DNA of 64,000 nt from Cymodocea nodosa. Lineage: Eukaryota > Streptophyta > Magnoliopsida > Alismatales > Cymodoceaceae. Made by a program: the position numbers and the translations under genes. Positions within the stretch are counted from its first letter, which is position 1. Every line of letters starts with the position of its first letter. The notes under the pieces were generated by a model, which made no database searches, was not told the origin of the DNA, and was given only the letters and a program-made list of their open reading frames with translations. Below, piece after piece: positions 28,323-64,000 of this stretch. Location of the stretch: the NCBI GenBank assembly GCA_036874045.1, contig JAZBRI010000004.1, positions 1,674,001-1,738,000 on the forward strand, written 5' to 3'.

Positions 28323-29337
28323 TTGCCTAAAATTGTTCCAATAAAGTATGACAAGTAACCACTCATTGAGGATATAAGACAATAATAATAGGTCTCATCT
28401 GTTTTAACAATTATCAGAAGTATTTTAGTAACTTAATTTGGTAGTATCTATATAGTTTTGTATTACGCTAAATTGTCTCAAGTTTAGGTTAAAAATTACT
28501 AATATAAAAAATATTAGTAAACTAAACACGGCCCAAAATGCTACATCATTCATTGAACCTAGTCTTAAGCCTGGTAAGATAAAAAAAGTTTGTGACAAGA
28601 AAACATCATATTTTTAATCCCTAATATTACACCACATAATTTGCAAATCTATAAGTGTTTTTTTTTTCTTCTTTTTTTTTAAACCATGCCTTAATTCTAT
28701 CACTTAACATTACTAATCTATGCTACCATCAATGAGCAACACCTTCGGTCGATCATCCCAAAGGTTTATGAAGAAAGAATTCTTAAGCTCATGCTTAGGA
28801 ATATAATTACTAATATATAAAAATTAATAACCCATGTTGTTTGATTAACTAAACTCTCTCCTAATTAATATTGACTTACTTTTGAGCTACATTTAACATG
28901 TAGGCATAATATTGCCTACTTGTTGTGGTGGGTGTTTCTGACTTGAGGACGATCTTTATCATAGCTGTGAATTTTATTTGCCGATACTTTCCTCTTTACT
29001 TTGACAAAAACAAAAAAAAACCATGTAGGAAGGCATGATGGTTTTTTTTTTTCTTAAAAAAACAACGCGTATAGCAGCCCGACTGAAGTTTCCAGCTGGA
29101 GTTATAACGAAAAATTCAAAAGTGAATACAATGTACAATATTGCATGCAAAGGTTGCTTCCAGGAAGGGGAAGCCAGTATGTACAGAGAATTAATATTGC
29201 TGCTGCGTCGAACCGAGAGTATATATGCTTATGCTACACCAGCCAGACACCCAAAAAATAGAAGACGACCTCAAGCCTCAAACAAATCTCTTCCGTGTGG
29301 GATCTCCTTTCATTTCACATCAAAAAGTAGCGTCGGA
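28323..29337. repeat. Duplicated-block flank downstream of HAL3-like copy 1
   Basis: Collinear with 59968-61137: shared words include GCCTAAAATTGTTCCAATAA, CCCATGTTGTTT.ATTAACTAA and AGCTACATTTAACAT. The part nearest the gene (29125-29337) also matches 53450-53660 and 61000-61137 (TTGCTTCCAGGAAGGGGAAG; CCAGCCAGACACCCAAAAAA). That shared part is the probable 3' UTR of the HAL3-like gene. Confidence 0.7.
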
Positions 29338-30361
29338 TCATCGCGGGTTCCTGGGAAAGGGACCATGGTAGCACCTCACCGCGTTGTAGAGATCAGCAGG
29401 CTCTGCCATTAAGGCGACGACCAACTCCCCAGAGGGTAGTTTCCTTGTGCTGGGCATGATCAAACTCATGCCAAGGTGGCTGGTATTGGCGAGGTGCTGC
29501 TCCGTGATGGTGTTATTCCACATGGAGTCGTTCATGGAGGGCGCGATGTACAGAGGCTTCCTGTAGTCCCATCCCCTTACGATGCACGTCAACAGATTGT
29601 CACAGTGTCCTGCAGATATCTAGGGAAGAAGGTAGACAATCGCCAGGACATGAGAAATATTCCCTGCCCCAAGTATGACCCAACTGGTAACATTCACAAT
29701 ATCGATCTCAAGCAAAATAACCCAAAGTGCTTGCTGGCCATGTTTTCTTTTTATCTAGCTATGGTTATTTTCCCTTAAAATCTTCCTAGAAACGTCTTCT
29801 TATCTTCTCATAACGATATAGGGTTCTATCTTCTATCATGCTGATGTAAGATAATTATTAATTTCTATGCTTTGAAGCTCATGCGAAAACGATAATCCAC
29901 TGAAATCAGTGCATAAATGCGTATAAACCACACGTTAGAGGAACACACAAAGAATTTGGAAAAAGGGAACGATTTCGGAAATAATTTCTTTAAGTACAAG
30001 AGAGGCAGATCACCTTTGCAAGAGTATTCGCCGTCAACGGGGCGATGACCATGAGGTCGGCCCACGTCCACAAGTCCAACTGTAGAGCGCTGCCGTTGAT
30101 CCCCTTCCAGCAAGGCCACTCCACAGCGTCTGTGTACAAGCGAATGCCATCCGGAATCTCAGACCTGTCAATGAATTCCAACGACGACTTCGTGACCACC
30201 GCTTTCACTTCAGCCCACTCCAAGAAGTACCGGCAGAGGCTCGGGAACCTGGTCGCGGACACCGATCCGGTGGCCGCCAAGAGAACCCGGGGCTTCCGCT
30301 GGGAAATCGGGTGCTTTGGTTGGATTGTTTCCTGTGCGAGCCCCTTTCCCTTTTCAGACAT
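29338..30361 (-). CDS. HAL3-like flavoprotein (PPCDC fold), copy 1
   Basis: Exons 30014-30361 and 29338-29619, GT-AG intron of 394 bp, joined in phase 0: 209 residues, the same length as Arabidopsis HAL3a, an FMN-dependent phosphopantothenoylcysteine decarboxylase of coenzyme A synthesis. Seen: KPRVLLAATGSVSATRF (about 23-39), ADLMVIAPLTANTLAK (101-116), CDNLLTCIVRGWDY (122-135), APSMNDSMW (142-150) and MAEP (187-190). Asn146 and Met149 of the PxMNxxMW clamp are kept. The catalytic His is replaced by Gln94 (ALQLDL) and the catalytic Cys by Ser179 (LPSGE). So decarboxylase activity is unlikely although FMN binding and trimer fold may persist. The start is the first ATG in frame; the frame stays open upstream but has no ATG. 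A TATA box lies about 220 bp upstream. May be a functional regulator or a recent pseudogene. Confidence 0.8.
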
Positions 30362-30582
30362 TGCGTCCAAGCTGGACGAAAGAATTCCCTGCTTGTAATT
30401 TGGATCTACGACGGAAAGAAACGCACGACGATCGTGATTCGAGCTCACCTCTTCTAGGGTGTCGTCGACGGCCGCCGTGGAGAGAGATCGATTCAGTGGT
30501 ACAGCGAAGGAAGACGAGAAGAAGCGTACGTGAGGAGCGGGAAGGTGTCTGTGTCTGGTATTGTTCTAACTGTGTCTTCTTT

Positions 30583-30592
30583 AAATTTATAG
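30583..30592 (-). promoter_or_regulatory. TATA box of HAL3-like copy 1
   Basis: Minus strand reads CTATAAATTT, about 222 bp upstream of the chosen start. The same box with the same neighbours (GGAGT...TTTAAATACT before, AAAGAAGACAC after) is present in all three copies. Confidence 0.65.
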
Positions 30593-30689
30593 AGTATTTA
30601 AATTTCGAAATAACTCCTCAAGTTTATTATTATTAGGACAACATCCATTTAATTTTATAAAAACTCGTGTAAACATCTTATCATTAGGA

Positions 30690-34646: not shown

Positions 34647-35570
34647 AAACTCTTGTCACACTTAGTCACTTAGTTAATGAGTAGGCAACACAAAAACTCT
34701 TATACACTTAATCAATCAATGTGTAGGCAGTCTAAAAACTCTTGCTACACTTAAGATCTATTTGTGTATATTTCTCACCAAGAAAGGAAATGATAAGAGA
34801 GTTTAGAAATGGAAAATGGAGATAATAGAACATAACAAAAAATATGGTAATGTTTGTGCATCAAAATGAAATGACAAGAAATTAAATTTAAGGCATTTGT
34901 GTAGTTACAAGAAATGATAGAGAATTAAAAATATAATACTTTTATTTAGAAATTAATTAATAAATTATATGAAATTTTTTTAAAAATATTATATTTCAAG
35001 TAGATTATTTTAAAATTAAATTTTTCTAAACAAGTTATAGAAAAAAATAAAATTTCATAAAAGAAAGACATAACAAGCTCATAAATAATACAAAATACCA
35101 ACAACATTATTCATTACAATATAACATTTTTCTTGTACCAATACAATACTTTTTATGCTACATATTATTATTTTGTTACATAAATAACATAATTTATTCA
35201 TGCATTTGGTGAGTTGCTCTTTTACTTTGTTTAATACTTAAAGTACTAGTACAATGTATTTCTTTTTTTTAACAAATTTAAGAGAAGAAGATGGAATATT
35301 AATCTCAAATGTGGAGCAAGTCAATATACAGATAACACCAAAACTTCTCCACAGTATATTCGGATTGAAGAATGAAGGAATAGAAATTTTGAAAGAAACA
35401 ACTATAGTGGAATATACTAAATAAGAAATAAAATAGTACATAGTCAATGATCCTAGAGTGCCATTACTTAACAAATTGAAGTATTTAAATGGAAAGGCAC
35501 ATATGGTAGCAACTATATTGGTGAAGACTGTTGTATCGATGTTTATTTAGAGTTAAATTAGAACTTGTTT
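34647..35570 (+). other. AT-rich spacer with possible retroelement coding remnant
   Basis: Mostly A/T. The plus strand at about 35266-35520 reads, with few stops, EEDGILISNVEQVNIQITPK then LLHSIFGLKNEGIEIL, resembling the plant-transposon N-terminal domain found ahead of gag in some gypsy elements. I cannot fix its ends. The minus-strand frame at 35238-35474 is the complement. Confidence 0.3.
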
Positions 35571-36470
35571 GATTTGTTTTTATACATATATTAATAAATT
35601 CTTTTAAGGTAAACAAACAATTTTTCACACAAATTAGATATTAAGTCTAATTTGTATTTTTTTTTTAACTGCAAGTGGATAGTGTCTATTATATTTGTAT
35701 GCAAGTGCAAGTTGATCTCACAAAGATTGAGTAAGAATTATGTACTATTTTGACATTTATACTAGAGTTTATATGTGTTTAATCAAGCTCTCCGTTGATT
35801 TACAGTTAACTCAACGGACTTAGTTCATAGAGTTACAGCTAACTCAATAGACTATCCTCGTAGATTTAAGTTAACTCCACAAGCTTATCTAGTAAATTTC
35901 AATTAAATGATGCTATTCACAAAGGAATTTGGTCATCTATTGGGTGATTCCATAGAATGTAAATAATATTAATTAAGCTTTTTAATGTTAGTTAACTTGA
36001 GATTTATCATTAATCAACACTAACATTCAAATATTTTGAGTAGTAACCATTAAGATTTTTTTAGTATTTTGTACAAATCAATTTTAGTAATCTATAAAAT
36101 TGTTTTTTATTTTTTGAATCAAATAAACATGAAACATTCACAATATTGATAATAATAACATTAATTACGACACAAAATAAACAATACAACACATAAATAC
36201 TAAATATAAACACAAATAATTAATTTTTTGTTATTTTTGTTTTGATATGTTCTTGAAGATGAATGAAAGGTGAATTGTAAAAATTCTATATTGATAGTAA
36301 GAACTTTCATCACTACATGTAACATGATTACACCATTGAAAACTTAATCACTTACAATCTCACCTCATCTTCCTATAGAATCGTAAACTAAGACTTGTAA
36401 GTTGATCTCTTCTTCAATATATTGGCATCAACCTGAAACCAAAGCTAGAAGCTTTACGATTGTTTGTTTA
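35571..36470 (-). repeat. Extra direct copy of the outer 0.9 kb of the gypsy LTR
   Basis: Collinear with 36483-37370: both begin AACTTGTTTGATTTGT.TTTATACATATATT and end AGAAGCTTTACGAT, with the same order of words between (TTGAGTAAGAATT, TTAACATCAATTAAGC-like, GTTACAGCTAAC). It stops abruptly at GAAGCTTTACGAT, where the second copy continues into the rest of the LTR. A partial duplication or second truncated LTR. Confidence 0.7.
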
Positions 36471-36482
36471 AGTTTTATCATA

Positions 36483-38564
36483 ACTTGTTTGATTTGTCTT
36501 TATACATATATTAATAAATTCTTTTAGGGTAAACAAATAACTTTTCACACAAATTAGATATTAAATTCAATTTGTATTTTACTGTAAGTGCACAATGTCT
36601 ATTGCATTTGTGTGCAAGTATAGGTCAATCCCATAAAGATTGAGTAAGAATTGTGTACTATTTTGATTTTTATACTAGAGTTTATATGTGTTCAATTAAG
36701 CTCTCTATTGATTTACAGTTAACTCAACAGACTTAGTTTGTGGAATTACAGCTAACACAACAAACTATCCTCGTGGACTTAAGTTAACTCCATGAGCCTA
36801 CCTAGTAGCTTCCAGTTAAATACTACTATTCACAAAGGAATTCGGCTATCCATTGGGTGGTTCCATAGAATGTAAATAACATCAATTAAGCTTTTTAATG
36901 TTAGTTAATTTGAGATTTATCATTAATCAACACTAAAATTCAAATATTTCAAATAATAACCATTAAGATATTTTTGTATTCTGTATGAATCAATTTTAGT
37001 AATCTATAAAACTATTTTCTATTTTCTGAATCAAATAAATATGAAACATTGATAATATTGACAATGATAACATTAATCACGATACAATACAACACATAAA
37101 TACTAAATGTAAACATAGATAATTAGTTTTTTTGGTATTTTTATTTTGATATGTTCCTGAAGATGAATAAAATGTGAAATATAAAAATTCTTTATCGATA
37201 GTAAGAACTTCTGTTACTATATGCGACGCGATTATACCATTAAAAACTTAATCACTTACAATCTTACCTCTTCTCCTTATAGAATCGTGAACTAAGTCTT
37301 ATAAATTAATCTCCTCTTTAGTATATTGACATCAATCTAAAACCAAGATTAGAAGCTTTACGATCTCCTAAGATATAAGTCAATGCTTGGTGAAAATGAC
37401 TTCCCTTCCTACAACGCGATCACTCCTCACAGTGATTGCCAATTACTATGTTTGGCTCAAAATCGACCTGACATCCGGAAAGTATCCTCATAGACCTTCG
37501 ATGGTTGGTGATTTTGGTGATGTTGTGGAGCTTCAGGGAACTTTCAACACCTCCTACAATTAGCATGATCCTCCACCTTCATACACACACCTCGTCTTTC
37601 TCCTCTTCTTTTATATTTCTTTCAATAGTAACTACTTCTATCTAAATGATTAGTTGGATTTCCTTCATTCATATCAACGATGGTGATTTTTTCTTCATTT
37701 CACAAGTTAATTCCTACGTGATATGTGCAATCGTAGTTTTCCTTCAAATTTCCTGTTTCTACAACTACTCATAGTGGCATGTTAGAAAATAACTAGTTCG
37801 TGGAGTTAGTGTAACTCAACGGACTTACTTTGTTGACTTAACTATAAAATACGTGTAATAAAGAATAACTTATAAGCTTATAACACTAACGTAATGTGTT
37901 ACCTTAGTGTATATAGTTATGCTAACTTAATGAGTTAAACATGTGCAGCTCACATGATATAGTAAAACATTTAAATTCAACACGTGTGTAATTCTAACTT
38001 ACGAATAAAAAGATATTTCAATAGTTACAAACTATAAGTATCTTATGCTTATATGCATTTCGAATAGTTAGCATCTAACCTTCTGAAAGATAACTTAAGT
38101 CAAATTTTCAAATCACAACACATGTCCTCAGTAATTTTTATGATAAAAAGGGTATTTCGAATACTTGCAAACCTAACTATCCAATGCTTAGACACATTTC
38201 GGATAGTTAGCATTTAACTTATTAAAAATCTACTTAAGTCATTTATTAAGGTAAAAACACGTGTCTTTTATAAAATAATAAAGTATTTTTTAAACGTTCA
38301 AAACATAACTGTTTGGTACATGAAATGTAACTCTCTGAAATAACAAGCATTTTGGATACTTAGGAATTACAAAGACTATAACTCACCAACAATTCAAAAA
38401 TATACTTAATTAACACTAATTCCCTAAAATTATGCAGATTCTTTCATTAAGATATATAATCGTGTAATTATAATATAATGACTTAATTCTCATATGATAA
38501 GCTAAATATTATACAATTAACCATTATTTAATAGTTAATATTATGCACTTTTTCATTCTAAACA
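36483..38564 (-). mobile_element. Athila-like Ty3/gypsy 3' LTR, minus strand
   Basis: About 2.08 kb. On the minus strand it begins TGTTTAGAATGAAAAAGTGC directly after a polypurine tract ATGGGGGAAG (complement 38565-38574). It is the inverted partner of 41344 to about 43490, matching along its length. It contains hairpin words (GTTAACTCAAC), TCGGATAGTTA repeats, an ACACGTGT at 38249 region, and a short antisense open frame at 37396-37563. The outer end is uncertain by tens of bases. Confidence 0.75.
37396..37563 (+). CDS. Short open frame within gypsy LTR, antisense to the element
   Basis: Fifty-five codons from ATG to TAG: MTSLPTTRSLLTVIANYYVW, then LKIDLTSGKYPHRPSMVGDF. The inverted LTR carries the same reading (42311-42592, MASLLATRSLLTMVV..., WLGIDPTSGKYPHRPPMVGD). 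The frame is kept although the DNA has diverged, which hints at real coding or at a captured gene piece. I do not recognise the family. Confidence 0.3.
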   Translation: MTSLPTTRSLLTVIANYYVWLKIDLTSGKYPHRPSMVGDFGDVVELQGTFNTSYN

Positions 38565-40479
38565 CTTCCCCCATACTTAACTTTTGCTAGTCCCTTAGCA
38601 AACTCATATGATTTAATTAACAAGTCTTTCTAAAGTGTTAAAACTATTTCTTTCCTTCATAAATCAATATTCATTATGAGAAATATTTCTTCATTTAATA
38701 TCTTCAGAATACTAATATTAGATTAATATAAAATATTCTGTATAATTCAGTAATCCAATTTAACATTGTTTTTCCTCTCCCAACCTGCAAATATATTTCA
38801 AACATATGTAAATTACATACAAAATATACTAGCATCACATAGGTGGTAATTATATTATCAATTTTTTTCTTTTCAAACATTTGTTATCCTAAATTTTCCA
38901 ATATGATTTCCAAAATAAATTTCAACTACATACGAATCAAAACACAATTCAACTCAATATGGTTAAAACAAGAAGAATAATGAATTGTATCTCAAATAAA
39001 CAACTTCAAAAGTCTAAGTCTAGATTCATACTTCAGTAATCATAAATAACAGAGAATATACTCAATTAAAAAATATCTGTATTTTCACAAAACACTTTTA
39101 TCTTTTCAGAACAATATATGCATATTTTTACTTTAAAAGTTAATTTGAAAAACTTGAATCATACAAGAACTTTCTAGTGTACCCATGTATCGAGCTTTCA
39201 GTCAACAATCCTAGATTTGATTAGGATCTTAGGTTGCTAGATTTAAAGAGTCATTTTTTAGGTAAAAAATCCTTATATACCTATCTACTCAAGTACAAAA
39301 GGCTCATGATCAAACAACTCAATAAACTCTCAAAATTTTCTCTTTTTTTTCTTTTCAACATAGTACATATACGTATTTCATTAATACAGATGTAATAAAA
39401 CACAAACCTCATATAATCCCGCTTCTACAATCTCTTGAAAAATATGAATCCATATCAATAAGCTCATACTTTTTCTATAGTTTAATAAGATTTACACAAA
39501 TTATTCTACAAGTTTAATCAATCAAATTAAATATATCCTTGATCATATGTATTTCATTTAATCCAAAAATCAACATTTCAGCTCTTTTAAGATTTTAGAT
39601 AATTTCCTGAGTTTCAGTTAAGCATTCTGATTTCTTTTTAAAATCGTGAAACTGTTAAATTCATAAAATTTAATAAAAACAAAAGATATTATATCTAGAT
39701 TTGTATTAATAGTAAAAGTTTGTAGCATCTTATATAAGATTCTAAATATAACATTCAAGCAGTTACAGTTCTCAAAAAAAAAAAAAAATTTTACATTTTC
39801 AACTATCGAAAGGTTTCATATAGTTTTTAGATAGTTATAGGAAATTTCAAAAAGTTACAACAAAATTCATAAAAGATTTCAGTTTTCATAGAAATTTATA
39901 GCATAATCTTAATTCCTCTAATTAACAAGATTACTTGGATTTTAATCTAATTACCTCCCCCTCATACCTACATTTTGCATTATCCTCAATGTAAAAGATT
40001 TACAATAAATACAGTAAATGTTAGTAGGCATAAATATTGTTTCATTGACTTAGCACCTAACTCAACGAACTTAATTCATTGAGTTAATGAATAACTCCAT
40101 GAACTGTGCTTGAATGTAAATTCAAGATAAGTAATCAATCACATACCTTGTTCTTTTGTATCTCCATTAATATCTTTCGACTTTTGATTCTAACAAACTT
40201 TTCATTCTCAAATAAAAGTAAAATACATAACAAAATAACAACTAACAACAAAACATAAATTATTAAATCAGTGCCTTGTGTGGAACCTAGGCTCTTATGC
40301 CTTTGGTGGCTCACAAGCAAGCCAGTTGGTTTCTCAAAACAGATACCAACAAACTAAATTGATATTTTGTTTTTATTTTCTTTTTCTTGTAAGATAAATA
40401 AAACATAAACTAAAGTTTTTTTTAAAAAAAAAAAAATAAATGTAGAATACACACAACATTAAAAATACAAAATCACAAC
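38565..40479 (-). mobile_element. Gypsy internal 3' region with polypurine tracts
   Basis: Noncoding, AT-rich. On the minus strand, 39935-39995 reads TTGAGGATAATGCAAAATGT followed by AGGTATGAGGGGGAGG, the signal that follows pol in Athila-type elements, and 38565-38600 reads GGGACTAGCAAAAGTTAAGT then ATGGGGGAAG next to the LTR. No RT or integrase motif occurs between them or upstream to gag. Confidence 0.65.
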
Positions 40480-41343
40480 CTAAGAACATGATTGAAAAGT
40501 AGTGACAAATGGAATAAACGTGTCAGTCCAAGCAAAACCTTTAGATATAATTCTTCTTGTCATTAATTTTGTTTTAATGCAGTCTACTTTTCTTTTTAAC
40601 TTGTAAACTTGTAGTATGTTATTAACACTAAATACAAGTGTATTACCATTAATGAATTGAAATGCAAAAAATGATCCTTTTTTGTTCCAATATAATGTAG
40701 TTGTTTCTATTTCTATATATATTTCAATATATTCCTCTTTCCACTTCCATTCATTCAGATCTTTCATAATCCATATTTGAAATTTCATCAATTCATCCCA
40801 CCATCTTACTAGACATAAAGTAGGATCATCATATTCATTATACCACACTTCTAATTGAATTTTATCATGTTCTATAGATGGTGGTTCAGCTATATCATTA
40901 GGTATAGGTAATATTTCTATAAAGTCAACATTATAACTATCTATGATTACTATATATAAATTAGATTTAAATGCAACTGATATATCCATGACTAGATATA
41001 TATATCCATCAAGTATGACATATATATTGTTAACTAATTCTTTCTCTCTTAGATATATCATAATATTTTCATTTCAAGATATATTTAGAAAATTTTACAC
41101 ACTTAAACATAACTCTTCATCCTAATTTCCAATTGGTCTCCAATAATACAATCTTTTAGGAATAGTCGAATTTTTATCAGAAAATGTTAAAGCTAACCCA
41201 CAATTTTCAGTTGGTACTTCAAATCTATTAGGTCTTCCTATATTTCATTCTTCGCTAGTAATAAGATTTCTAATCAAAATATCAGGTAACATAATAGCAT
41301 ACCTTGGTTTGGTTCTATAAATAATCAATCCTTCATTTATCCT
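40480..41343 (-). pseudogene. F-box protein gene, C-terminal part (inside gypsy element)
   Basis: The open frame 40480-41061 (193 codons) has ILPIPNDIAEPPSIEHDKIQ, LEVWYNEYDDPTLCLVRWWD, FQIWIMKDLNEWKWKEEYIE and FFAFQFINGNTLVFSVNN. This resembles the F-box associated region of plant F-box proteins, where xxVWxLxDyxxxEW is followed by a short strand-rich tail. Upstream frames to 41343 continue in the same style (NRFEVPTENCGLALTFSDKN) with two stops. It is separated from its F-box (43513-43820) by an inverted LTR. Family assignment of this half alone is moderate; the pairing with a clear F-box supports it. Confidence 0.55.
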
Positions 41344-43490
41344 TGTTTAAAATGAAAAAGTGCATATTATTAATAGTTAAATGATGGTTAATTGCATAAT
41401 ATTTAGCTTATCATATGAGAATTAAGCCATTATGTTATAATTGCACTGTTATATGCTTTAATTGAAGAATCTACTTAATTTTGGGGAATTAATGTTAATT
41501 TAGTACATTTATGAACTGTCGGTAAGTTGCAGGCTGTGAAATTCTTAAGTATCCGAATTTTCTGATATTTCAGACAGTTATGTTTAACATACCGAACAAA
41601 TTCAGATAGTTATGTTTAACAGACCGAATATGTATCGGATAGTTATGTTTAAATTGCCAAGTAGTTATGTTTTGAGAGAATAATTTATTATTTCCTGAAG
41701 TACGCATGTCGAAACTAGAATAAATGACTTAAGTGAACTTTCAGTGAGTTATCTATAACTATCCGAAATTACAGTTGAGCATCGGATAGTTATCCCTGTA
41801 ACTCTCCGAAATCTCTTTTTATTTATAAAATAGTTGAGGACACGTGTCATGTTCTAGGAAAGTGACTTAAGTGAACTTTCGGTGAGTTAGCTGTAACTAT
41901 CCGAAATGCATCTAAGCATCGGATAGTTATACTTGTAACTCTCCGAAATGTTATTTTATGATTAAAACTGCTGCTGACATGTGTCGAGATCTAGTAGATT
42001 TACTTAAGTTATGTATCAGTGAGTTATCTGTAACTATTTGAAATGCATCTGAGCATCGGATAGTTAAGTTTATAAGTATCTGAAATACACCTGGGCATCG
42101 GATAGTTAAATTTATGCACGTGTTTTATAGTTAAATCAACGAAGAAAGTCTGTTGAGTTATTTGTAACTCCACGGACTATATATTGTCTAATATGCCACT
42201 ATAGCAGTTGCAGAAACAGGACAGTTGGAAGGAAAAACCATGTTTGCACGTATCGCACAAGAGAAGGAAGCATCGCCATTGATATGAATGAAGGAAATCC
42301 AACCGATCATTCAAGTAGAAGCAGTTACTACTGAAGAAATATAAAAGAAAAAAAGAAAAAAAGAAGAGGGATGATCGATGTGTGATCGATGGACGGATAG
42401 TGTGTGCAGAGGAGGATGAGCATCGCAATTCTCTAAAGTACCACACCAACCATCACCACCATCATCACCACCATAATCACCAACCATCGGAGGTCTGTGA
42501 GGATACTTGCCTGATGTCGGGTCGATTCCGAGCCAAACACAATGCCTGACAACCATTGTGAGAAGTGATCGCGTCGCGAGAAGAGAAGCCATTTTCACCA
42601 AGCGCCAACTCATATTTCAAGAGATTGTAAAGCTTTTAGCCTTAACTTCGAGTTGATGCCTGTATGCTATAGAGGAGATCATCTTGCAATTCTAGACTCG
42701 CAATTCTATAGGGAGAGGAGACAGAATTGTAAGTGGTTTAATTTTCAGTGGTGTAATCACATTGCAAGTAGTGTCGGAAGTAATTACTGTCAAGTGATAT
42801 TACTTTACATTTCACCTTTCGCCCATTTCCATGTTCACATCAAAACAAAAATACCAAAAACAATTTATCTTTGTTTGTATATTGTATTTGAGTGTTGTAT
42901 TGTTTGTGTTGTATCGTGATTAATGTTATCTGTATCAGTTTTGTGATTATTTTATGTTAGTTTTAATTTTACAGTTTACTGAAATTGGTTCGTACGAAAG
43001 ACTTAAAGATTTTAATGGTTACTGTTTGAATCATCTGAATGTTAGTATTGCTTAATGATAAATCCAATGTTTACTAGCATTAAAATGCTTAATTGATGTT
43101 ATTTACAATCTGTGGAATCGCCCAATAGTTAGCTGAATTCCTCTGTATATAGCAATATTATAAAGAAGAGACAGGCTCGTGGAGTTAACTTAAGTCCACG
43201 AGGATAGTCCATTGAGTTAGCCATAACTCAACGAACTTTGTCCGTTGAGTTAACTATAACTCAACGGAGTACTTATTGAATATAAATTTGAATTGTTAAC
43301 AATCAAACAGTTCTTAAATTCGTCAGCAATTCCCTGTGGGATCGACCTGTGCTTGCACACTAATACAATAGACACTATGCACTTGCAGTTAAAGTACAAA
43401 TTGGAATTAATATCTAAATTGTATTAAAGGTTGTTTGTTTACTTCTAAAAGAAAGAATAGTTATAAAGATAAATTAACTAAGTAAAAACA
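41344..43490 (+). mobile_element. Athila-like gypsy LTR, plus strand, inserted in F-box sequence
   Basis: About 2.15 kb, beginning TGTTTAAAATGAAAAAGTGC. It is the reverse complement of 36483-38564. It carries about three 138-bp tandem units (41725-41862, 41863-41999, 42000-42120) with TAACTATCCGAAAT...CATCGGATAGTTA palindromes and CACGTG cores, an ACC/ATC microsatellite near 42440-42490, and a 3' end with hairpin words. No primer-binding site or gag follows, so it may be a solo LTR. Its right end and target duplication are not clear. Confidence 0.7.
42311..42592 (-). CDS. Open frame within gypsy LTR, antisense to the LTR
   Basis: Ninety-three codons from an ATG: MASLLATRSLLTMVVRHCVW, then LGIDPTSGKYPHRPPMVGDY, a Gly/Asp-rich stretch and a low-complexity hydrophobic end. 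The first 50 residues align with the frame at 37396-37563 in the other LTR. The N-terminus is short, hydroxylated and basic, like an organelle-targeting sequence, but this is inference. Not recognised. Confidence 0.3.
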   Translation of the reverse strand: MASLLATRSLLTMVVRHCVWLGIDPTSGKYPHRPPMVGDYGGDDGGDGWCGTLENCDAHPPLHTLSVHRSHIDHPSSFFLFFFYISSVVTAST

Positions 43491-43512
43491 GAAGTAACAA
43501 ATCTAAGTTTTT

Positions 43513-43820
43513 CTAGTGTAGTGCTGGGAAAACCCAAACAATCCCCATAATATGATCTATTCCTTTTAATATATTAGTTGGAATTCCAGTATTTTCTTTC
43601 ATGTTCAGATATTCATAACTGATTGAACTACGATTAAATGACTTCCATAAAAATCCATCTCTAATATTCGTCATCTTTTTAGCTTGTAGTCTATGAAAAT
43701 ATTTTTCTCTAATACATTCTTTAATTTGTCTTGATACACAACACAATTTGCATAGATCTTTAGCAATAAATTACTCAATACTTCCCTCAGTGTATCTAGT
43801 GGTAATTTCATCAATTCCAT
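43513..43820 (-). pseudogene. F-box protein gene, N-terminal F-box part (frameshifted)
   Basis: From the ATG at 43820, one frame gives MELMKLPLDTLREVLSNLLL and a second, after a shift near 43755, gives DLCKLCCVSRQIKECIREKY. Together they form a typical F-box (LPxDxLxEILSxLxxKxLxxxxCVS.xxxxxI), the Skp1-binding motif of SCF ubiquitin ligase subunits. The frame runs on to a stop at 43513. It lies immediately downstream of gag in the element orientation and the rest of the gene is at 40480-41343, beyond the inserted LTR. Decayed by frameshift and insertion. Confidence 0.65.
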
Positions 43821-44039
43821 ATGTTGTGATTCTGTATAACATAAACAAAATTTAAATAGAGATAAAATTAACATAGCTACTTACATACCTCTACGGAGTT
43901 AGGTCATAACTCAATGGACTAAGTTCGTTGAGTTAAGTAATAATACTACTAACTATAATTAAACTTTCATTTTTTTATGTTTTTTTTTCTATATTTTTTC
44001 TACTTACTATATTATACATAGTTGCTAATAATTGTGCTA

Positions 44040-45360
44040 CTTCATTCAACTTCCCTCCCTAAGGAGGTATCAATTTCATTAACAGTTCTATTCACAAGAT
44101 TTGGTACTTCTTGAATTGACAGTCCTCTAATTGGTCTAACTTTTATTGAATCCTTCTATCTAGGAGGTATATTTCTATTCATATTTTGATTTGCAGTACT
44201 TCCAAATACATGATCTAGATGATTGTTTAATTGTTGAATTATCTTTTCTAATTTCTCTATTCTAAATCCTTATTCAATTAATACTTCATAACTTATATTT
44301 TTGTCATTTATATTTTCTCCTCCTTGGAAATTGTTATTTCTTCAAGATAAATTTGAGTAATTTCTCCAATTAGGATTATAAGAATTTCCAAAATTACCTT
44401 TCTGATTTCTAGCATAAATAATATCTAAGTCATTAATATTTGCATTCTTTTCTACTAGTTTTTGATTTAATGATAACTCCTCTATTTTCTTTGTTAACTT
44501 AGTTAATTTAACTTCAAGCATAGTGCTTGAATCTATTTCATGCATTCCCCTTGGCAATATTTTTTTATCTGTAATAGTTTCAATCGAGTTTTTCTACTAA
44601 GTAGTTCTTTTTGCAAAGTTTTCTAAGTATGCACATGCTTCTTCACTACACAGTTTTAAAAATCTATTCTAACAAGTAAATTCTAATAAAGATTTAGTTG
44701 AAACATCTATGCCTTCATAAATTATACCTATTAATTGTACTTTACTCATTGCATGATGTGGACATTGAGTCAGTAAATCTTTAAATCGTTCAAACTATTT
44801 TTAGAATGATTCTCTCTATTTTTGGCTACACATTAATATTTTCTTTTTCTTTTTAATCGTTTAATGTGTTAATGTGTTGGATAATATTTTTCTAGAAAAA
44901 TAAAGCAAAATTCAATCCATGTAAAAATTGAATGAGGTGATAGAGTATAACCATCTTTTAACAGTATCTTTTAAAACAAAAGGAATATATCTAAGTTTAA
45001 TAGCATTAATACTCATGTTCGACATTTTCATCATTTGACAAACTTCATTAAATTCTCTAAGGAAATAATAGGCATTTTCTCTTTCTAATCCATGAAAGTG
45101 TGGCAATTGACTAATATAATTAGATTTTAGTTCAAACCTATTTCTCTCAAGTTTGACAATCAAATATATGAAGGTTTATCAACTAATTCAGGATACAGAA
45201 TTTTCCTTAATGGTTTTTCTATTGGAGCAACCATATCTTCGTTCTTCTTTAAAGAAAGGTTAGCTACACCCTTAAGGATTTCGTTAAAGTCCAATTCAGA
45301 AAATGTTTCAGTATACCTCTGTATTGAATAATCCTATGTAGGTGTTCTTACTAATCATTT
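44040..45360 (-). pseudogene. Ty3/gypsy gag (Athila/Tat-like), decayed
   Basis: Minus-strand pieces in order: PIEKPLRKILYPELVDKPSY (about 45180-45240), FELKSNYISQLPHFHGLERE and NAYYFLREFNEVCQMMKMSN with LKDTVKRWLYSI (44912-45163), then YNPNWRNYSNLS (44342-44557) and EKLEKIIQQLNNHLDHVFG. This order and the HGLE..F.REF..VC and YNPGWRNHPN-type motifs are those of plant gypsy gag. Several stops and shifts. No protease, RT, RNase H or integrase follows; F-box sequence does. Confidence 0.75.
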
Positions 45361-47029
45361 AGTGCTAGGAAAACGAGTCTATGTGCTCATAAACTCTTAC
45401 CATAAAGTAAAATGCAGAAGATTAATTACATACCAGTCTAAAGCCTTATTTTCAATAAATAGTTGTTGACGGATGAAGTTGAATCAACTGCTTCTCCTTC
45501 CAGTTCCCTAACGAATTCTCTTTCCTCTTCTCTATTGTTGGTAACCAATAAATAACATTATTTTCTATATTTATAATGCACGTCCATAATGTAAATAAAT
45601 CTCGTTGCAAGAACATGTCTTGTAATGTGCGATATGGTCCCTATTTTTATGGATATGTATTCCACTTCTAATTTTTAAATTTCAGTAACCACTAAACCCA
45701 TGAAGTCTAGTTCATGGAGAAAAGAATAACCATTAAGCTAACTCTATGGACTAAGTTTGTTGAGTTACAGATAACTCAACGAAGTAACCTCAATTATTGC
45801 TCTTAACTTAACGAACTAACCTCATTGAGTTATAGCTAACTCAACAAACTAGCTTCGTCTTCTATTTGCTAACTCCACGGACTAACTATGTTGAGTTACA
45901 AATAACTCAACAAAGTGATCTTATATTTTATTATTGACTTTGTGGAGTTAACTCCACGAACTAACTTCATTGAGTTAAAACTTAGCAAATTTTCCTAAAA
46001 AATCTTACTTCTCATCTTAACTTCTATATTTTTTTTCCTGCATATTATCAACTTAAATAAAGTTAAATACATTATATTAATGCAGTGTTCTAATTTAAAC
46101 TCAATTAAATCGGAACATTATATGCATATTTAACTTACAATTCCTTTTTTGTTATGTAGAAATTAAATTTCACTTTTCGGTATGCAAATATATCCAGTTA
46201 TTTTGCACTTAACCACATCATTTATAAAATTTTAAAACTTATCCTTCAAAACTTTAAATAGATCTTCAATACAGTTCTCAATTACATCATTCATTCACAA
46301 TCACACAATTTCAGAAACATATTGATGTTCAACCATTAATATATATATATATCGTTTACAGTACATTCAGTTAGATATTTATTTTTTAGTACAAGTAGAT
46401 GAATAATATAATTAATCTCTATTTCTTAATTCATCTACTTCCTTCTAGAGTTTTTTTAATTGTTGTTCCAATTGATTTATACGTTCTACAACTCCTGTAA
46501 AGTCTCTAGAATGTCCAGCACTTTTAGTAGCGGCATAAGTTCTGAATTCCTTTATTGAAATGGCTCTAGATCTCATCCTTTTAGATGTCCATTTCATGAA
46601 GTCAATTTCTTCCACCATCAGTAGTGGAATTAGATATCCATAAAATAATTTCTTCTTTACTGCTCTCAACTTGGAGATAAATACTTTGTACCAATTTTTA
46701 CAACTGTTTTGTTGAGTTATGTGATAACTCCATGGACTCAATTTGGTCATGTAGTTCAGTAAAATAAACATAATAAAACGAGTTATGTAAATGTAACACG
46801 TACTATATAGGTGTAAACAACATTTAATAATATTTTTAGGAGATATTTTTCAATAATTTCAAAATAATACTTAGTTAACGTTAATTCCTTTTAATTATAC
46901 ATATATTTCAATTAAGCCTTAGATTTCTGCAATTGTAACATAATAACCTAATTCTTATTTGCACCCATATAACATGTCCTTAATTGTTAATTTAAGTTTT
47001 AAGAATTATGTACTTTTTCACTCTAAATA
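45361..47029 (-). mobile_element. Gypsy 5' leader and incomplete 5' LTR
   Basis: The outer 170 bp (46860-47029) match the inner end of the LTR at 38395-38564 (GTTAATTCC, AATTATGCACTTTTTCA-type words), ending in TCTAAATA, so this is the outer start of a minus-strand 5' LTR. The rest of a 2-kb LTR is not collinear. 45740-45990 holds a dense set of GTTGAGTTA/TAACTCAAC hairpins. 46445-46771 has a minus-strand frame (LFYGYLIPLLMVEEIDFMKW) like the plant-transposon domain of some gypsy elements. Confidence 0.5.
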
Positions 47030-47039
47030 AGCGGTACAA

Positions 47040-52932: not shown

Positions 52933-53440
52933 ATGTAATTGATATGATATAAATGAGGTATTCTTCTTTAAAAGATATAAAGTATAAAATTACTAGTTAA
53001 TTCTTAAGTAATCCTATATATTGGAAATGCATATCCCACATAACAATAATATTTGTAACATGAAAAAGATCCACGTAAAATATAACAGATGGAGATGTAG
53101 GCATCATGGACATATTCAAGAAGTCCTCTTCACAGACGTGAACAAAAGTTGTTTCTCTTCGTATGGCTTGCTTGAGGTTATTTTTCAGTGTTATTCATGG
53201 TTATCATTCATGTTCTTATTACTTTCTTCCTATTTAGCTGATCCGATGTTGTTACGACAAGCAAACTCCTCTGCACCTTTTCTCTTTTCTATAAATATCT
53301 CAAAGAAAGTATGGGGCAACCGGATGTCTCCTTTCCGTAACCAAACAGAGGAGTCACCACGTCATGATGCTCTCACAACGCGATCAGGGCGAATGACACA
53401 AGCTGTAGCAAAGTGATCAACGCGATCAAAGTGAAAGACA
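52681..53440. other. Intergenic with (TA)n microsatellite
   Basis: A TA dinucleotide run of about 26 bp at 52903-52929. The open frame 53021-53416 has no recognised domain. Confidence 0.45.
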
Positions 53441-53660
53441 ATGGGCACGTACATCATTACATACAAATGTTGCTTCCAGGAAGGGGAAGCCGGTACGTAC
53501 AGGTGAAGAACTAATATTGCTGCGGCGTCGAACCGAGAGTATATATGCTTATGCTACACCAGCCAGACACCCAAAAAATAGAAGACGACCTCAAGCCTCA
53601 AAACAAATCTCTTCCGTGTGGCATCTCTCCTTTCGTTTCACGTCAAAAGGTAGCGTCGGA

Positions 53661-54540
53661 TCATCGCGGGTTCCCGGGAGAGAAACTATAGCTGGATCTC
53701 ACCGTGTAGTAGATGTCAGCGGGCTCTCCCATTAAGCCGGTGACCAAGTCCCCAAACGCTAGCCTCGTTGTGACGGGCATGATCAAAATCATACCAAGCT
53801 GTCTGGTCTTGGCGAGTTGCTGCTCTGTGGCTCTGTTATTCCACAAGAAGATGTGCATGGAGGGCGCGATGTACAGAGGCTTGGTGTAGTCCCATCCCCT
53901 TACGATGCACGTCAACAGATTGTCACAGAGTCCTGCAGAAATCTAGGGAAGAAGGTAGGCAATCGTCAGGACATGAAAAATAATTAACGAAACTGTACTG
54001 ACGACAGAGTATACAGATAATTAAACCATTTCTATACTTTTGAAGCTTATGCGAAAACGATAATCCACAGAAGTCGGTGCATAAATGCGTATCAACCACA
54101 CATTAGAAGAACACACAAAGAACACTGAAAAAGAGAACGATTTCAGAAGTAATTTCGAAGATCAAACAACAGAGGCGGATCACCTTTGAAAGACTATTCG
54201 CCGACAACGGGGCGATGACCATGAGGTCGGCCCACTGCCGCAACTCCACATGTAGAGCCAGGTTGTCGATCCACCTCCAGCTTGACCAGTCATCATTGTC
54301 TGTGTACAACGGAATCCCATTCGGAATCGCAGTGACGTCCATGAAATTCAACGACGAATTCGTGAACACCACTACCACTTCAGCCCACTCCAAGAAGCAC
54401 CGGCAGAGGGTCGGAAACATCCACGCGGACAGAAATCCGGTGGCCGCTAAGATAACCCGGGGCCTCCGCTGGGAAATCAGGCGCTTTGGTTGGATTATTT
54501 TCTCGGCGGAGGTCAATACCCTTCCGGACGTTTTGTTCAT
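53661..54540 (-). CDS. HAL3-like flavoprotein (PPCDC fold), copy 2
   Basis: Exons 54184-54540 and 53661-53942, intron 241 bp GT-AG, 212 residues. Keeps RPRVILAATG (about 27-36), ADLMVIAPLSANSLSK (104-119), CDNLLTCIVRGWDY (125-138) and MGEP. The catalytic His is present at His97 (ALHVEL). Two other key positions are lost: PxMNxxMW reads PSMHIFLW (His149 for Asn, Leu152 for Met), and the catalytic Cys is Phe182 (LAFGD). FMN-dependent decarboxylation of phosphopantothenoylcysteine is therefore improbable. The leader MNKTSGRVLTSAEKIIQPKR is shared with copy 3, so these two are the closer pair. Start chosen at the first ATG; the frame is open about 45 codons further but begins at GTG. Open throughout, with TATA box and matching 3' flank. 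Confidence 0.78.
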
Positions 54541-54764
54541 GTCGCTGGACGAAAGAATTCCCTGCTTGTAATTTTGATCCAAGACCGAAAGAAACACACG
54601 ACGATCGTGATTCGAGCTCACCTTTTCTAGGGTGTCGTCGACGGTGGCCGTGGAGAGAGATCGATTCAGTGGCACGGCAAAGAAAGACGAGAAGAAGAAG
54701 CGTACGTGAGGAGCGGGAAGGTGTCTGTGTCTGTGTCTGGTATTGTTCTAATGGTGTCTTCTTT

Positions 54765-54774
54765 AAATTTATAG
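54765..54774 (-). promoter_or_regulatory. TATA box of HAL3-like copy 2
   Basis: Minus strand CTATAAATTT, about 225 bp upstream of the start, in the same context as copies 1 and 3. Confidence 0.65.
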
Positions 54775-54849
54775 AGTATTTAAATTTCGAAAAAACTCCT
54801 CAAGTTTCGGATTATTAGGACAGCATCCATTTAATTTTTTAAAACTACT

Positions 54850-55525
54850 TACGTGTTCATAGAGCCTATTTTTCCTGTAACTCTGTCTTAATGAAATAAT
54901 ATAAGCAAATTGAGTGCCGCGCTTATAAGCTATAACATTAAAGAAAATTTAATTAGTTAAGTTTTCTCAAATATAATCAATAAATAGATTAAAACTTAAA
55001 AATAAACAAAATAAAAGAACAGAAAGCTCTAGTGTATCTAAATAGGAACAAGAAGGGACATCACCGATCGCCTGAGCATTCCATCTATTCATCGTTTTTC
55101 GTTTTATTTTCTTAACACTAACGTAAGAAATTCAACCGTAAGTGTAAGTCCAAGAATTTGAACCTGTGTCAATAATACCTTAGAAATTCTTTGTCACCAT
55201 TTATAAACACCTCTAGATATAATATTCTCTTATTTTATTTCAATTTAAGCAATGACAAGTCAAAGAAGAAACCCCCAAGGTTCTCCATAAGCTCTGATGA
55301 GATTCTCTTAATTACATGAGGACAAATTCTTTCCTGAGACTCGTTTAATGAATTACATTATTTTATTAATGGTTTAGCAATCTCCACAAATAATTCTAAT
55401 AAACTCTTTTACACCCTTCAAAAAAATTTTAACCTTTCTGCTGTTGATCTAGATGTTCTGAATAAAAATACCCAAACTTTACATAGCTACAAGATTTAAT
55501 CAAGTTTTTTCTCTTAATCATCTGC
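54850..55525. other. Upstream flank of HAL3-like copy 2
   Basis: 54840-55090 is similar to 63250-63490 (TTTTTCCTGTAACTCT, AAACAAAATAAAAGAACA, GCCTGAG), so the duplicated block extends this far. The rest is AT-rich without a gene. Confidence 0.5.
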
Positions 55526-60845: not shown

Positions 60846-61137
60846 CTTGTGGTGGTTGTTTTTGACTTTATTGATACTTTCTTTCCTCTCTGCATGGGAA
60901 AAAAAACATGCAGCATGAGATTTTTTTTTTCTAAAATGAACAAAACAAATCAGTGTGAATACAATAGGTACGTACATTGTTACATACAAAGGTTGCTTAC
61001 AGGAAGGGGAAGCCAGTACGTACGGATGAAGAATTAATGCTACACCAGCCAGACACCCAAAAAATAGAAGAGGACCTCAAGCCTCAGACAAATCTCTTCC
61101 GTGTGGGATCTCGTTTCGTTTCACAACTTTCCTCCCA
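60846..61137 (-). other. 3' flank of HAL3-like copy 3
   Basis: Resumes the match to 28925-29337. Contains GGTTGCTTACAGGAAGGGGA and CCAGCCAGACACCCAAAAAA, shared with the 3' flanks of the other two copies. Confidence 0.6.
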
Positions 61138-62950
61138 TCAAAAAGTAGCGTCGGATCGTCGCTGGTTCCTGGGAAAGAAGGTATAATTGGACCTCACCGT
61201 GTGGTAGATATGATCGGGCTCTGCCATTAAGCCGACGACCAGCACACCAGAGACTAGTCTCCTTGAAATGGGCATGACCGACCTGATACCAAGCTGGTAG
61301 GCCTTGTAGATCTGCTGTTCTGTGATGATGTTATGCCACATGAGGTCGTTCATGGAGGGCGCAATGTACAGAGGCTTGCTGTAGTCCCATCCCCGTACGA
61401 TGCACGTCAACAGATTGTCACAGAATCCTGTGGTAATCTAGGGAAGAAAGTAGACAATCGTCAGGACTTGAAAATTATTCCCTGCCCCATGTATGACCCA
61501 ACTGATAAGATTCACAATATCGATCTCAAGCAAAGTAACCCCAAGTGTTTGCTGCCCATGCTTTTCATCAATGGTTATTTTCCAATGAAATCGTCCTAGA
61601 GACGACTCTTCATATCTTCCCATAAATTATATCAGAGAGTAAAATAATTAAATTGTATGAATCTTAAGAACAGATGCTTATAAATACATTATAGAAATTT
61701 CACTTCAATTGAACAGTTGTTGGTTCTTATCTAAATGTCTTACAGTTGATTGATTGATTTTCATTGAATTTCAACTATTGGTTTTCAAATCAAAAAAACC
61801 TTAAAGAATATAACTTAAATTAAGTTAAAATTTTAACATACAAGATATTATACTCTATATATTAACCAATTATATGATCTTTTACTTTTTAAAAAAAACA
61901 AAGAGATGCTTCTAAAAAGTTATGTTAATGACGTTTTGCCTAAAATTTAATTCAAGATATTCTCTGCTTGTAAATACTATGATACAACAGAAGATCAACT
62001 GCTAATAATGATAAAATGTTTTTGTTAGAGAATTCCCACAGAATACACTATCTGGCCATCAACTGCATTACCATTGGTCGCGACATGTGTAGACTAGTCT
62101 ATTCTAGGGCAGACGGTGTGGTACAATATGTTGAGTAAATGTCTCACCTTTTTTTTTGAAAGAGTAGAAGTTTCACTTGTATTATAACTTAAGATCCATT
62201 TGTCACTGCTAATTTATGCATGATACTTGCATAAATTCATAGTATGGGTCACTTGAAGGCTTACAAAATATAAAAGTTCACAGATGAAGAGGCATATTGA
62301 GTAAAAGATAAAACTGAATCTGACCTTATACCAATCACTTTTGTGTAGACAGAAACCATGAAAATTTTTCCTTCAATGCCGTGATAAATAACGATATAGG
62401 GTTCCATCTTCTATCATGCTGGTGTAAGATAATTATTAATTTCCATACTTCGAAGCTTACGCGAAAACGATAATCCACAGAAGTCGGTGCATAAATGCGT
62501 ATCAACCACACATTAGAAGAACACACAAAGAATACTGAAAAAGAGAACGACTTCAGAAATAATTTCGAAGATCAAACAACAGAGGCGGATCACCTTTGCA
62601 AGAGTATTCGCCGACAACGGGGCGATAATCATGAGGTCGGCCCAATTCTGCAACTCCAAATGTAGAGCCTGGCCGTTGACCCTCCTCCATGCTGGCCAGT
62701 CCTCATTGTCCGTGTACAGCGGAATCTCATACGGAATCGCAGGGATGTCGATGAAATGCAACGACGAATTCGTGAACACCGCTGCCACTTCAGCCCACTC
62801 CAAGAAGCACCGGCAGATGGTCGGAAACCTGGCCGCGCACAGACATCCAGTGGCCGCCAAGATAACCCGGGGCTTCCGCTGGGAAATCGGGCGCTTTGGT
62901 TGGATTATTTTCTCGGCGGAGGTCAATACCCTTCCGGACGTTACGTTCAT
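61138..62950 (-). CDS. HAL3-like flavoprotein (PPCDC fold), copy 3
   Basis: Exons 62594-62950 and 61138-61437, GT-AG intron of 1156 bp, 218 residues. Keeps KPRVILAATG (about 26-36), His97 (ALHLEL), ADLMIIAPLSANTLAK (104-119), CDNLLTCIVRGWDY (125-138), the full clamp PSMNDLMW (Asn149, Met152) and MAEP. The catalytic Cys is Ser182 (LVSGV). It is therefore the least damaged of the three: only the Cys of the HAL3 active set is missing. In yeast, Hal3 and Vhs3 supply the His and Cab3 supplies the Cys in a mixed trimer, so a partner-dependent role is conceivable; that is inference. The last 16 residues differ from the other copies because of a later stop. TATA box at 63170-63179. Confidence 0.8.
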
Positions 62951-63169
62951 GTCGCTGGACGAAAGAATTCCCTGCTTGTAATTTGGATCTACGACGGAAA
63001 GAAACGCACGACGATCGTGATTCGAGCTCACCTCTTCTAAGGTGTCGTCGACGGCGGCCGTGGAGAGAGATCGATTCAGCGGCACGGCAAAGAAAGACGA
63101 GAAGAAAAAGCGTACGTGAGGAGCGGGAAGGTGTCTTGTGTCTGGTATTGTTCTAACTGTGTCTTCTTT

Positions 63170-63179
63170 AAATTTATAG
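63170..63179 (-). promoter_or_regulatory. TATA box of HAL3-like copy 3
   Basis: Minus strand CTATAAATTT, about 220 bp upstream of the start, same context as the other copies. Confidence 0.65.
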
Positions 63180-64000
63180 AGTATTTAAATTTCAAAAAAA
63201 CTCCTCAAGTTTCGGATTGTCGAGACACGTCACGTCACCATCCATTTAATTTTATAAAACTACTCGCTCATAAAGCCCATTTTTCCTGTAACTCTATTTT
63301 AGTAAAATGATAGAAGGAAGTTGAATACAGCGCTTACAAGTTATAACTTTAAAAAATTTTAATCAATTAATTTTTCTCAAATACATTTAGATAAAAAAAT
63401 AAACAAAATAAAAGAACAAAAAACTGTCCTATCGGAATCAGGCATGACCGACTCGAGGAACCGAAAGGAACGTCGCCGACTGCCTGAGTCGCCTAACACG
63501 CGAGAGTGATCTCGTGCTCTTCCTCCTCCTCGCCCGCCGTCCAGTCGGAAGACGAAGACCACACCTATGGGAGATATGGACGTCTGGAGAGGCCATCGTC
63601 CGGCGAGAGTTAGTTTCATGATGGCCGACGTTCCCCCTGGCCAGAAACCGCAAGCCTTGCCATCGTAAGCCGACGGACAGAGTGGCATCTTCACCTTCAC
63701 GTCCAGAAACCAGAGATGCCATCTTTTAATCCAAGATTCCCACAGGGAATCAGAAATACCATTTTTGATCCAGGTAATAAATATCTCCCGTCGTACACAA
63801 ATTAGAAATTCCATCCATCCAACGCCCGAATGTCTGGTAACAACATGATTCATAATTACCAAAAATTCAAAGACTCTTTATATCTTCCATGTGCACGAAC
63901 AAAAGAAAGTGAAAAAAACAAGTAAACTTCCTACATTCAGGGAAGGGTAAAGGAGACGAGTTATATAACAACGGTAAATGTTAAGTCTGAAGAAAAAATT
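63180..64000. other. Upstream flank of HAL3-like copy 3 with GC-rich segment
   Basis: 63250-63490 matches the flank of copy 2. 63420-63780 is strongly GC-rich and open on the minus strand in two frames (63377-63862 and 63438-63722, the latter rich in Arg). No domain is recognisable and the two frames exclude each other. It may be an exon or a decayed gene. Confidence 0.35.

Follow-up and report, generated by a model that had tools for sequence, protein, structure and literature searches.

The closest described systems to the element reported here belong to the Athila lineage of Ty3/gypsy retroelements. Diaspora has a 2524-bp long terminal repeat (LTR) with a tRNA-Asp primer-binding site (PBS) 5 bp after it, according to passages of PMC1142308, and excerpts of PMC11728184 place a Transposase_32 domain in the 3′ additional open reading frame (ORF) of sunflower Athila. 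Arabidopsis holds pol-less Athila families in which gag is followed by a third gene in sense orientation, with members lacking pol (part of PMC2410132). Additional ORFs, some with host-type domains, are known in plant LTR elements from portions of PMC7264820 and PMC9289625, and an ORF for an AlkB-type N6-methyladenosine (m6A) demethylase was retained through the diversification of an orchid Ty3/gypsy family (PMC9289625, same portions). Host gene sequence also lies within LTR elements of maize (Bs1), rice and sorghum (passages of PMC3726574 and PMC13317346), and transduced genes are said to occur in one or few copies (an excerpt of PMC7264820). Here we describe an element copy in 64,000 nucleotides of Cymodocea nodosa (contig JAZBRI010000004.1, positions 1,674,001 to 1,738,000; C4:1674001-1738000 in our numbering; hereafter the window). 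The minus strand of 35540-46697 in the window holds a decayed LTR retroelement copy, which is probably a 5′-truncated member of a high-copy Athila-type Ty3/gypsy family with an F-box/F-box-associated (FBA) gene as its resident 3′ gene.

The family shares with the Athila lineage (Athila4, Calypso, Diaspora) an LTR of about 2.1 kb, the PBS TGGCGCCGTTGCCGGGGA a few bases after the LTR, a Retrotrans_gag domain and a Transposase_32 ORF behind pol. It differs in that the capsid gene follows the Transposase_32 ORF, apparently instead of standing between LTR and protease, and the F-box gene comes next. Whereas the pol-less Arabidopsis Athila families keep gag and an env-like ORF, here pol lies upstream of gag where it is kept, and the gene after gag encodes an F-box protein. 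The orchid AlkB family, as far as the passages of PMC9289625 describe it, is alike in carrying a host-type domain as an additional ORF and unlike in the domain itself; those passages hold nothing on a displaced capsid gene. The main texts of PMC3726574, PMC13317346, PMC7264820, PMC9289625 and PMC2410132 do not contain the term ‘F-box’, and none of the titles and abstract openings listed in our literature searches described an LTR retrotransposon with a resident F-box gene or with gag placed behind pol. A resident F-box gene together with a capsid behind pol thus had no match among the literature listed, the Athila lineage itself being known.

The order gag, F-box/FBA gene, post-pol signals, polypurine tract (PPT) and 3′ LTR on the minus strand had been proposed in an earlier note made from the sequence of this stretch alone, and it is borne out by matches to PF03732 and PF00646, by weaker FBA matches and by reading of the sequence. 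The features in the window, in the direction of the element, are:

46858-47027, minus: first 170 nt of a more distant family LTR, probably not the window copy’s own 5′ LTR
46001-46697, minus: C-terminal end of a Transposase_32 ORF (Athila-type) and following non-coding DNA, with a tblastn match at 46696-46592; homology with other family copies starts here
45361-46000, minus: gag leader with TAACTCAAC/GTTGAGTTA palindromes akin to the LTR end
44044-45360, minus: decayed gag (Retrotrans_gag capsid domain); its 377 codons contain 11 in-frame stops
43821-44043, minus: spacer holding a palindrome and, directly before the F-box start, a likely 3′ splice site (AG, 43833-43832) that is conserved
43541-43820, minus: F-box gene part 1 (F-box domain), one frame shift
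41344-43540, plus: nested antisense solo LTR, subfamily B, with target duplication GGGAT (43545-43541) / AGGAT (41343-41339)
40481-41338, minus: F-box gene part 2 (F-box-associated domain), 4 in-frame stops
38577-40480, minus: post-F-box non-coding region with hairpins, the GAGGATAATG...GGGGGAGG signal and a pre-PPT hairpin
38565-38576, minus: PPT GTATGGGGGAAG
36461-38564, minus: 3′ LTR, subfamily A
35540-36460, minus: tandem duplication of the LTR’s final 0.9 kb

Retrotrans_gag (PF03732) was matched inside 45175-44044 with 26.1 bits (E = 1.1e-5, stops written as X), and in the unselected whole frame with E = 2.1e-4, below the cut-off. The F-box domain (PF00646) at 43820-43513 scored E = 9.4e-7 when one frame step was replaced by X and 0.0069 without that replacement. 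In the F-box-associated half, FBA_1 (E = 0.0035) and TIGR01640 (E = 0.0024) matched the same stretch, 41073-40483, both under the curated cut-off. Structure prediction of this half reached a pLDDT (predicted local distance difference test) of 33; searches of the PDB and Rfam gave 0 matches each, and a viral contig search found nothing useful. The Transposase_32 remnant was recovered by tblastn with the ORF of another copy, C5, as query (35 amino acids at 46696-46592, 63%, E = 2.7e-10), and the post-pol GAGGATAATG/GGGGGAGG signal was read at about 39990-39945. Both gag and the F-box gene are decayed and share one orientation, and no reverse transcriptase (RT), RNase H or integrase was found in the three minus frames of 38565-47030, all as the earlier note had stated. 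Its LTR at 38564-36483 is present; it extends to 36461, and the last 0.9 kb is duplicated (36460-35540).

The two F-box halves, which had been reported as separate regions, are both present and are one gene broken by a nested antisense solo LTR, since the intervening DNA is an LTR with a 5-bp target duplication. The 2.2 kb between the halves is an LTR of a related subfamily in opposite orientation, with 69% identity to the 3′ LTR in local comparison and 78% of aligned bases in global comparison. Its right end falls at about 43541 by comparison with genome copies and at 43540 in the sequence itself, where GGGAT/AGGAT (4 of 5 bases matching) flank the LTR; an alternative right end at 43486 was wrong by both the genome search and the target duplication. 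All ten copies fetched as long stretches (see below) lack the nested LTR at this site. Another locus, L002 (C3:14537775-14542134), inspected within its 4.4 kb, has a B-type antisense LTR at the same F-box position (after nt 279) with a piece of the post region behind it. The two LTRs may derive from one insertion that was later copied.

We searched the genome (374,616,459 bases, 374.6 Mb, in 28 contigs) for the gag/F-box junction with window 44400-43000 as query and scored 40 places, the best 40 of 9595 candidates. Among these, the gag end was joined to the F-box start at 24 further loci with 86-90% identity, as the earlier note would have expected of gag and F-box that travel together. Ten of the 24 were fetched as long stretches (L003-L008 are pieces of six of them). 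Gag end, spacer and F-box start are contiguous in 10/10, the F-box gene continues into the post region in five (C18, C15a, C5, C11, C21), and PPT and LTR follow in four (C18, C15a, C5, C21). The PPT is in the identical place in C15a and C5, differs by one base in C18 and is more altered in C21. An F-box protein search scored the best 150 of 5575 candidates, the window included, all with E below 1e-98. Thus at least 149 close relatives of the window F-box were scored besides the window itself, unlike the genes captured by LTR elements in maize (Bs1), rice and sorghum. We sampled 20 of these loci (every seventh rank from 2 to 100 of the protein list, ranks 106 and 113, the last row, and ranks 28 and 88). 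Gag lies upstream in 15, spacer, leader or family LTR in 4 more, and the remaining locus (L044) holds a truncated FBA only. Because the junction recurs at other loci and 19 of the 20 sampled F-box loci carry family sequence upstream, the gag/F-box association is a property of the repeat family and not of the window locus. Two loci, C4a (L013/L014) and C15b (L019/L020), are head-to-tail arrays of post region, LTR and the next copy’s 5′ part; they share one LTR, and no PBS lies behind the shared LTR.

Copy C5 shows where pol lies. On one strand it contains RT, integrase, the Transposase_32 ORF, leader, gag, F-box gene, post region and LTR. RVT_1 was matched with E = 2.5e-10, and 4.1e-6 in a second frame (an RT fragment), Integrase_H2C2 with 1.2e-10 and rve with 6.1e-6. 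Transposase_32 (PF20167; E = 2.8e-6, 27.8 bits vs a curated cut-off of 45) lies about 3 kb beyond the integrase domains. In C17a, H2C2 (1.5e-11) and rve (2e-7) stand upstream of the gag/F-box module in the same relation, and the other fetched copies are colinear with C5 over shorter upstream distances. The window copy’s homology to other copies stops at about 46697, before the pol region, so its missing pol reads as a truncation.

The association was extended with four independent best-hit lists, two of 150 places and two of 40, which together cover RT, integrase, ORF and F-box, with pair distance ranges chosen after the C5 spacing was known. The Transposase_32 ORF preceded an F-box on the same strand in 13 pairs, 3.7-5.8 kb apart (0 pairs in the upstream control, 2 on the opposite strand). 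Integrase preceded the ORF in 6 pairs including C5 (controls 0, 0), five of them with a spacing of 2990-3057 nt and the sixth with 3776 nt, and integrase preceded the F-box in 2 pairs (controls 0, 0). Integrase, ORF and F-box stand together at the C5 spacing at C15:4533483. RT was linked to an F-box in 1 pair, at 8641 nt vs 8582 in C5 minus its own insertion (controls 0 upstream, 1 opposite). Same-strand pairs on the upstream side were zero in every comparison.

A displaced capsid gene is the second unusual feature. Behind the LTR end, stretch L052 has an exact tRNA-Asp-type PBS, TGGCGCCGTTGCCGGGGA; the same site has 1 mismatch in L068 (copy B2, of subfamily B) and 2 mismatches in L067 and L011. 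The motif, taken to be of tRNA-Asp type, had been written down before it was detected. The window copy has no PBS, and its 5′ LTR was not found. A zinc knuckle pattern follows the PBS in L068, L061 and one of the two C18 stretches, three of the five examined. Behind the PBS, L052 and L068 share 91% identity; 1.26 kb of L052, the end of which is presumably the pre-protease stretch, gave no match to Retrotrans_gag. The distant relative L067 has about 1.1 kb between its 2-mismatch PBS and Asp_protease_2, and a copia-type gag (PF14223) precedes that PBS. None of 22 gag stretches beside the F-box gene (11 of them partial) contains a knuckle pattern. In C5, C17a and B2 the capsid gene comes after the third ORF, which departs from the Athila order of gag, pol and third ORF. 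Thus gag seems, as far as these sequences go, to be split in two, with the knuckle before pol and the capsid behind it.

Copy B2 has an LTR end, the PBS, the knuckle CEFCNSEGHDISDC and then an integrase core (84 nt, 98.8% identical to C5); its Transposase_32/leader/gag part begins 3298 nt further on, vs 3380 in C5, and the F-box gene follows. Since the knuckle ORF runs straight into the integrase core, B2 is an internally deleted member; the part it has lost lies on the upstream side of gag, away from the F-box position. The leader that precedes the capsid gene is similar to the LTR end, and in most A copies the DNA before this leader ends in TTTGCTAAG, a sequence that recurs in the pre-PPT hairpin. 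If two elements had fused head to tail, the LTR-like leader and the two places of TTTGCTAAG would both be accounted for.

These observations bear on how the locus arose. The earlier note had proposed that a host F-box gene was captured by a non-autonomous element, where it took pol’s place behind gag and ahead of the post-pol region, and the window taken by itself looks that way, with the F-box gene between gag and post-pol signals and no pol. RT and integrase upstream in C5, integrase upstream in C17a, and matching spacing at a few loci are at odds with such a replacement. The window copy’s family homology stops before pol, and B2 is a deleted exception; neither the replacement nor the non-autonomous status is supported for the family. 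At family level this explanation is largely contradicted and we think it very improbable; what remains of it is a stage through which the module may have arisen, for if the family is a fusion of two elements, the second may have had an F-box gene in pol’s place. That a host gene was captured fits the domain content; no host parent gene was identified, and the genome search with FBA_1 matched nowhere, controls included. A host F-box gene of the ordinary kind, beside which pieces of gag and LTR lie by chance, would agree with the decay of the parts in the window and with the fact that F-box/FBA genes are common in plants. A junction common to many dispersed loci, and family sequence upstream of nearly all sampled F-box loci, rule such a chance neighbourhood out, and we give it next to no probability.

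A more serious alternative holds that two families exist: a pol-bearing element without an F-box gene, and a pol-less gag/F-box element that inserts beside it or recombines with it in LTR-sharing head-to-tail arrays, so that pol only seems to lie upstream. Such arrays exist (C4a, C15b), Athila families that lack pol and keep gag plus a third gene are common in Arabidopsis (part of PMC2410132), B2 is internally deleted, and C5 is the one copy in which RT was read next to the F-box unit. Further points weigh against an F-box gene resident behind pol. RT-integrase and RT-ORF pairs, and pairs of all three with the junction list, link only at C5, which was the source of the queries for these best-hit lists; these lists, the best of thousands, thus overlap little and leave most loci uncovered. 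No copy was read from 5′ LTR to 3′ LTR, so that the family order is pieced together from several copies (the 5′ end of C5 and the 3′ end of B2 lie outside the stretches), and 2409 nt of B2 between integrase and ORF are outside the sequence read. A knuckle pattern is absent from L052 and one of the two C18 stretches. At one integrase-bearing locus (C14) the predicted F-box site (L070) gave no match; this site resembles copia sequence. Nonetheless, the DNA from integrase to gag contains no full LTR in either C5 or C17a; both hold short matches to the palindromic part of the LTR, and C17a also has short antisense pieces in an extra stretch. The integrase-ORF spacings given above, the locus C15:4533483 and the B2 integrase remnant close behind its own PBS likewise disfavor two families, and we regard this alternative as unlikely. 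A candidate for the partner’s pol, an RT/integrase block before a B-type LTR (L058), has no visible PPT before the LTR and was read as an insertion target.

The preferred reading, a resident F-box gene, is further supported by conservation of its frame. The F-box domain exceeds the curated cut-off of 20.5 bits in two copies without stops (L033, 39.2 bits; L045, 36.1 bits), with PF00646 at E = 5.5e-10 and 5.3e-9. For the F-box-associated domain, FBA_1 scored E = 0.0035-0.012 and TIGR01640 E = 0.0024-0.0072, with none listed for L045. We counted stops in 24 copies (the window, 5/10 fetched and 18/20 sampled; L042 and L044, with a partial F-box, were dropped). Over 1139 columns the F-box frame contains 57 stops in 9075 codons, vs 937 and 1247 in the other frames. 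Four copies (L029, L033, L043, L045) are free of stops, which is not a rate, because ranks 28 and 88 were picked for an open frame. The two B copies, B1 and B2, have 2 and 1 stops in the F-box frame vs 36 to 45 in the other frames. Five A copies, ten for the F-box gene, were compared with B, in pairs that are not independent. Gaps per kb were 1.5 in gag and 3.8 in the F-box gene, vs 19.2 in the leader and 56.5 in the spacer, and identities were 0.871, 0.846, 0.814 and 0.818, respectively. Shared transversions by codon position were 17/16/33, favouring the third position. By these comparisons subfamilies A and B have both retained the F-box frame.

Several measurements pull the other way. The FBA matches are below the cut-off, and the L043 frame continues past the usual stop. 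Shared variable sites by codon position were 101/80/111 and singletons 83/91/78, a weak signal of selection, and fixed A-B differences were 21/12/23. The median ratio of nonsynonymous to synonymous substitution rates (dN/dS) was 0.42, hardly lower than 0.48 and 0.59 in the wrong frames. TAG stands at codon 160 in 15/24 copies, implying that much of subfamily A multiplied with an incomplete F-box frame, unless the stop is read through. This codon changed from TGG to TAG, and TGG codons 125, 166, 182 and 364 are changed in 4 to 5 copies each, which suggests methylation-driven decay.

Eleven bases before the F-box start, the AG of the likely 3′ splice site is kept in 23/27 copies including both B copies, 22 of them with strict AGAATC. 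The window contains, on either strand, two AGGTATGT donor-like words only, at 40141-40148 and 43883-43890 (minus), which flank the F-box gene; the AGGTATGT-type word near the F-box start varies in other copies.

Several neighbouring features involve other repeats. The LTR piece at 47027-46858 was rejected as the window copy’s own 5′ LTR, having 47/168 mismatches to the 3′ LTR vs 26/175 for the nested LTR (Fisher p = 0.0036); no 5′ LTR of the window copy was found. A remnant of a hAT-type transposase (PF14372; 47028-48315, plus) starts, by eye, exactly at this fragment. Beside the duplicated LTR tail, 35263-35532 (plus) matches the N-terminal part of the Transposase_32 ORF (tblastn, 68% over 90 amino acids), which marks it, at sequence level, as a piece of another family copy on the strand opposite to the window copy. 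Palindrome arrays of TTGAGTTA/TAACTCAA lie at 5050-8200 in an apparently unrelated repeat, and the motif recurs across the non-coding DNA of the F-box family. Three diverged copies of one repeat lie at 29122-30667, 53425-55028 and 60949-63425; ORFs in the first two match Flavoprotein PF02441, which we take to be of the phosphopantothenoylcysteine decarboxylase type.

Combining several copies, the family order would be 5′ LTR, tRNA-Asp-type PBS, knuckle ORF without a capsid domain, protease, RT, RNase H, integrase, Transposase_32 ORF, palindromic leader, gag (capsid), F-box/FBA gene, post region, PPT and 3′ LTR, with protease and RNase H presumed for the F-box family itself. The capsid gene may have moved behind pol, perhaps via head-to-tail fusion of two elements. 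The F-box protein could be translated from a spliced RNA via the conserved acceptor before its ATG, like retroviral env, and might act as a substrate receptor of a Skp1-cullin-F-box (SCF) ligase that aids the element, for example against silencing factors or in setting the level of Gag. Viral F-box proteins offer an analogy, as does polerovirus P0, an example of plant viruses using the host protein-destruction machinery; by this analogy a silencing factor is the most attractive guess for the target. The window copy would have lost its 5′ part, decayed and received the nested LTR within its F-box gene. We offer only tentatively the wider scheme of a split-gag lineage, in which a 5′ knuckle and pol, a 3′ capsid/F-box module, spliced expression and a ubiquitin ligase directed against a silencing or restriction factor led to very high copy number.

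The displaced capsid gene, if confirmed, departs from the usual gag-pol order. Most additional ORFs in plant LTR retroelements have no known function, and few can be recognised. The F-box gene, retained by two subfamilies of a high-copy family, has a recognisable and testable function, and suggests that the element exploits the protein-destruction machinery of its host.

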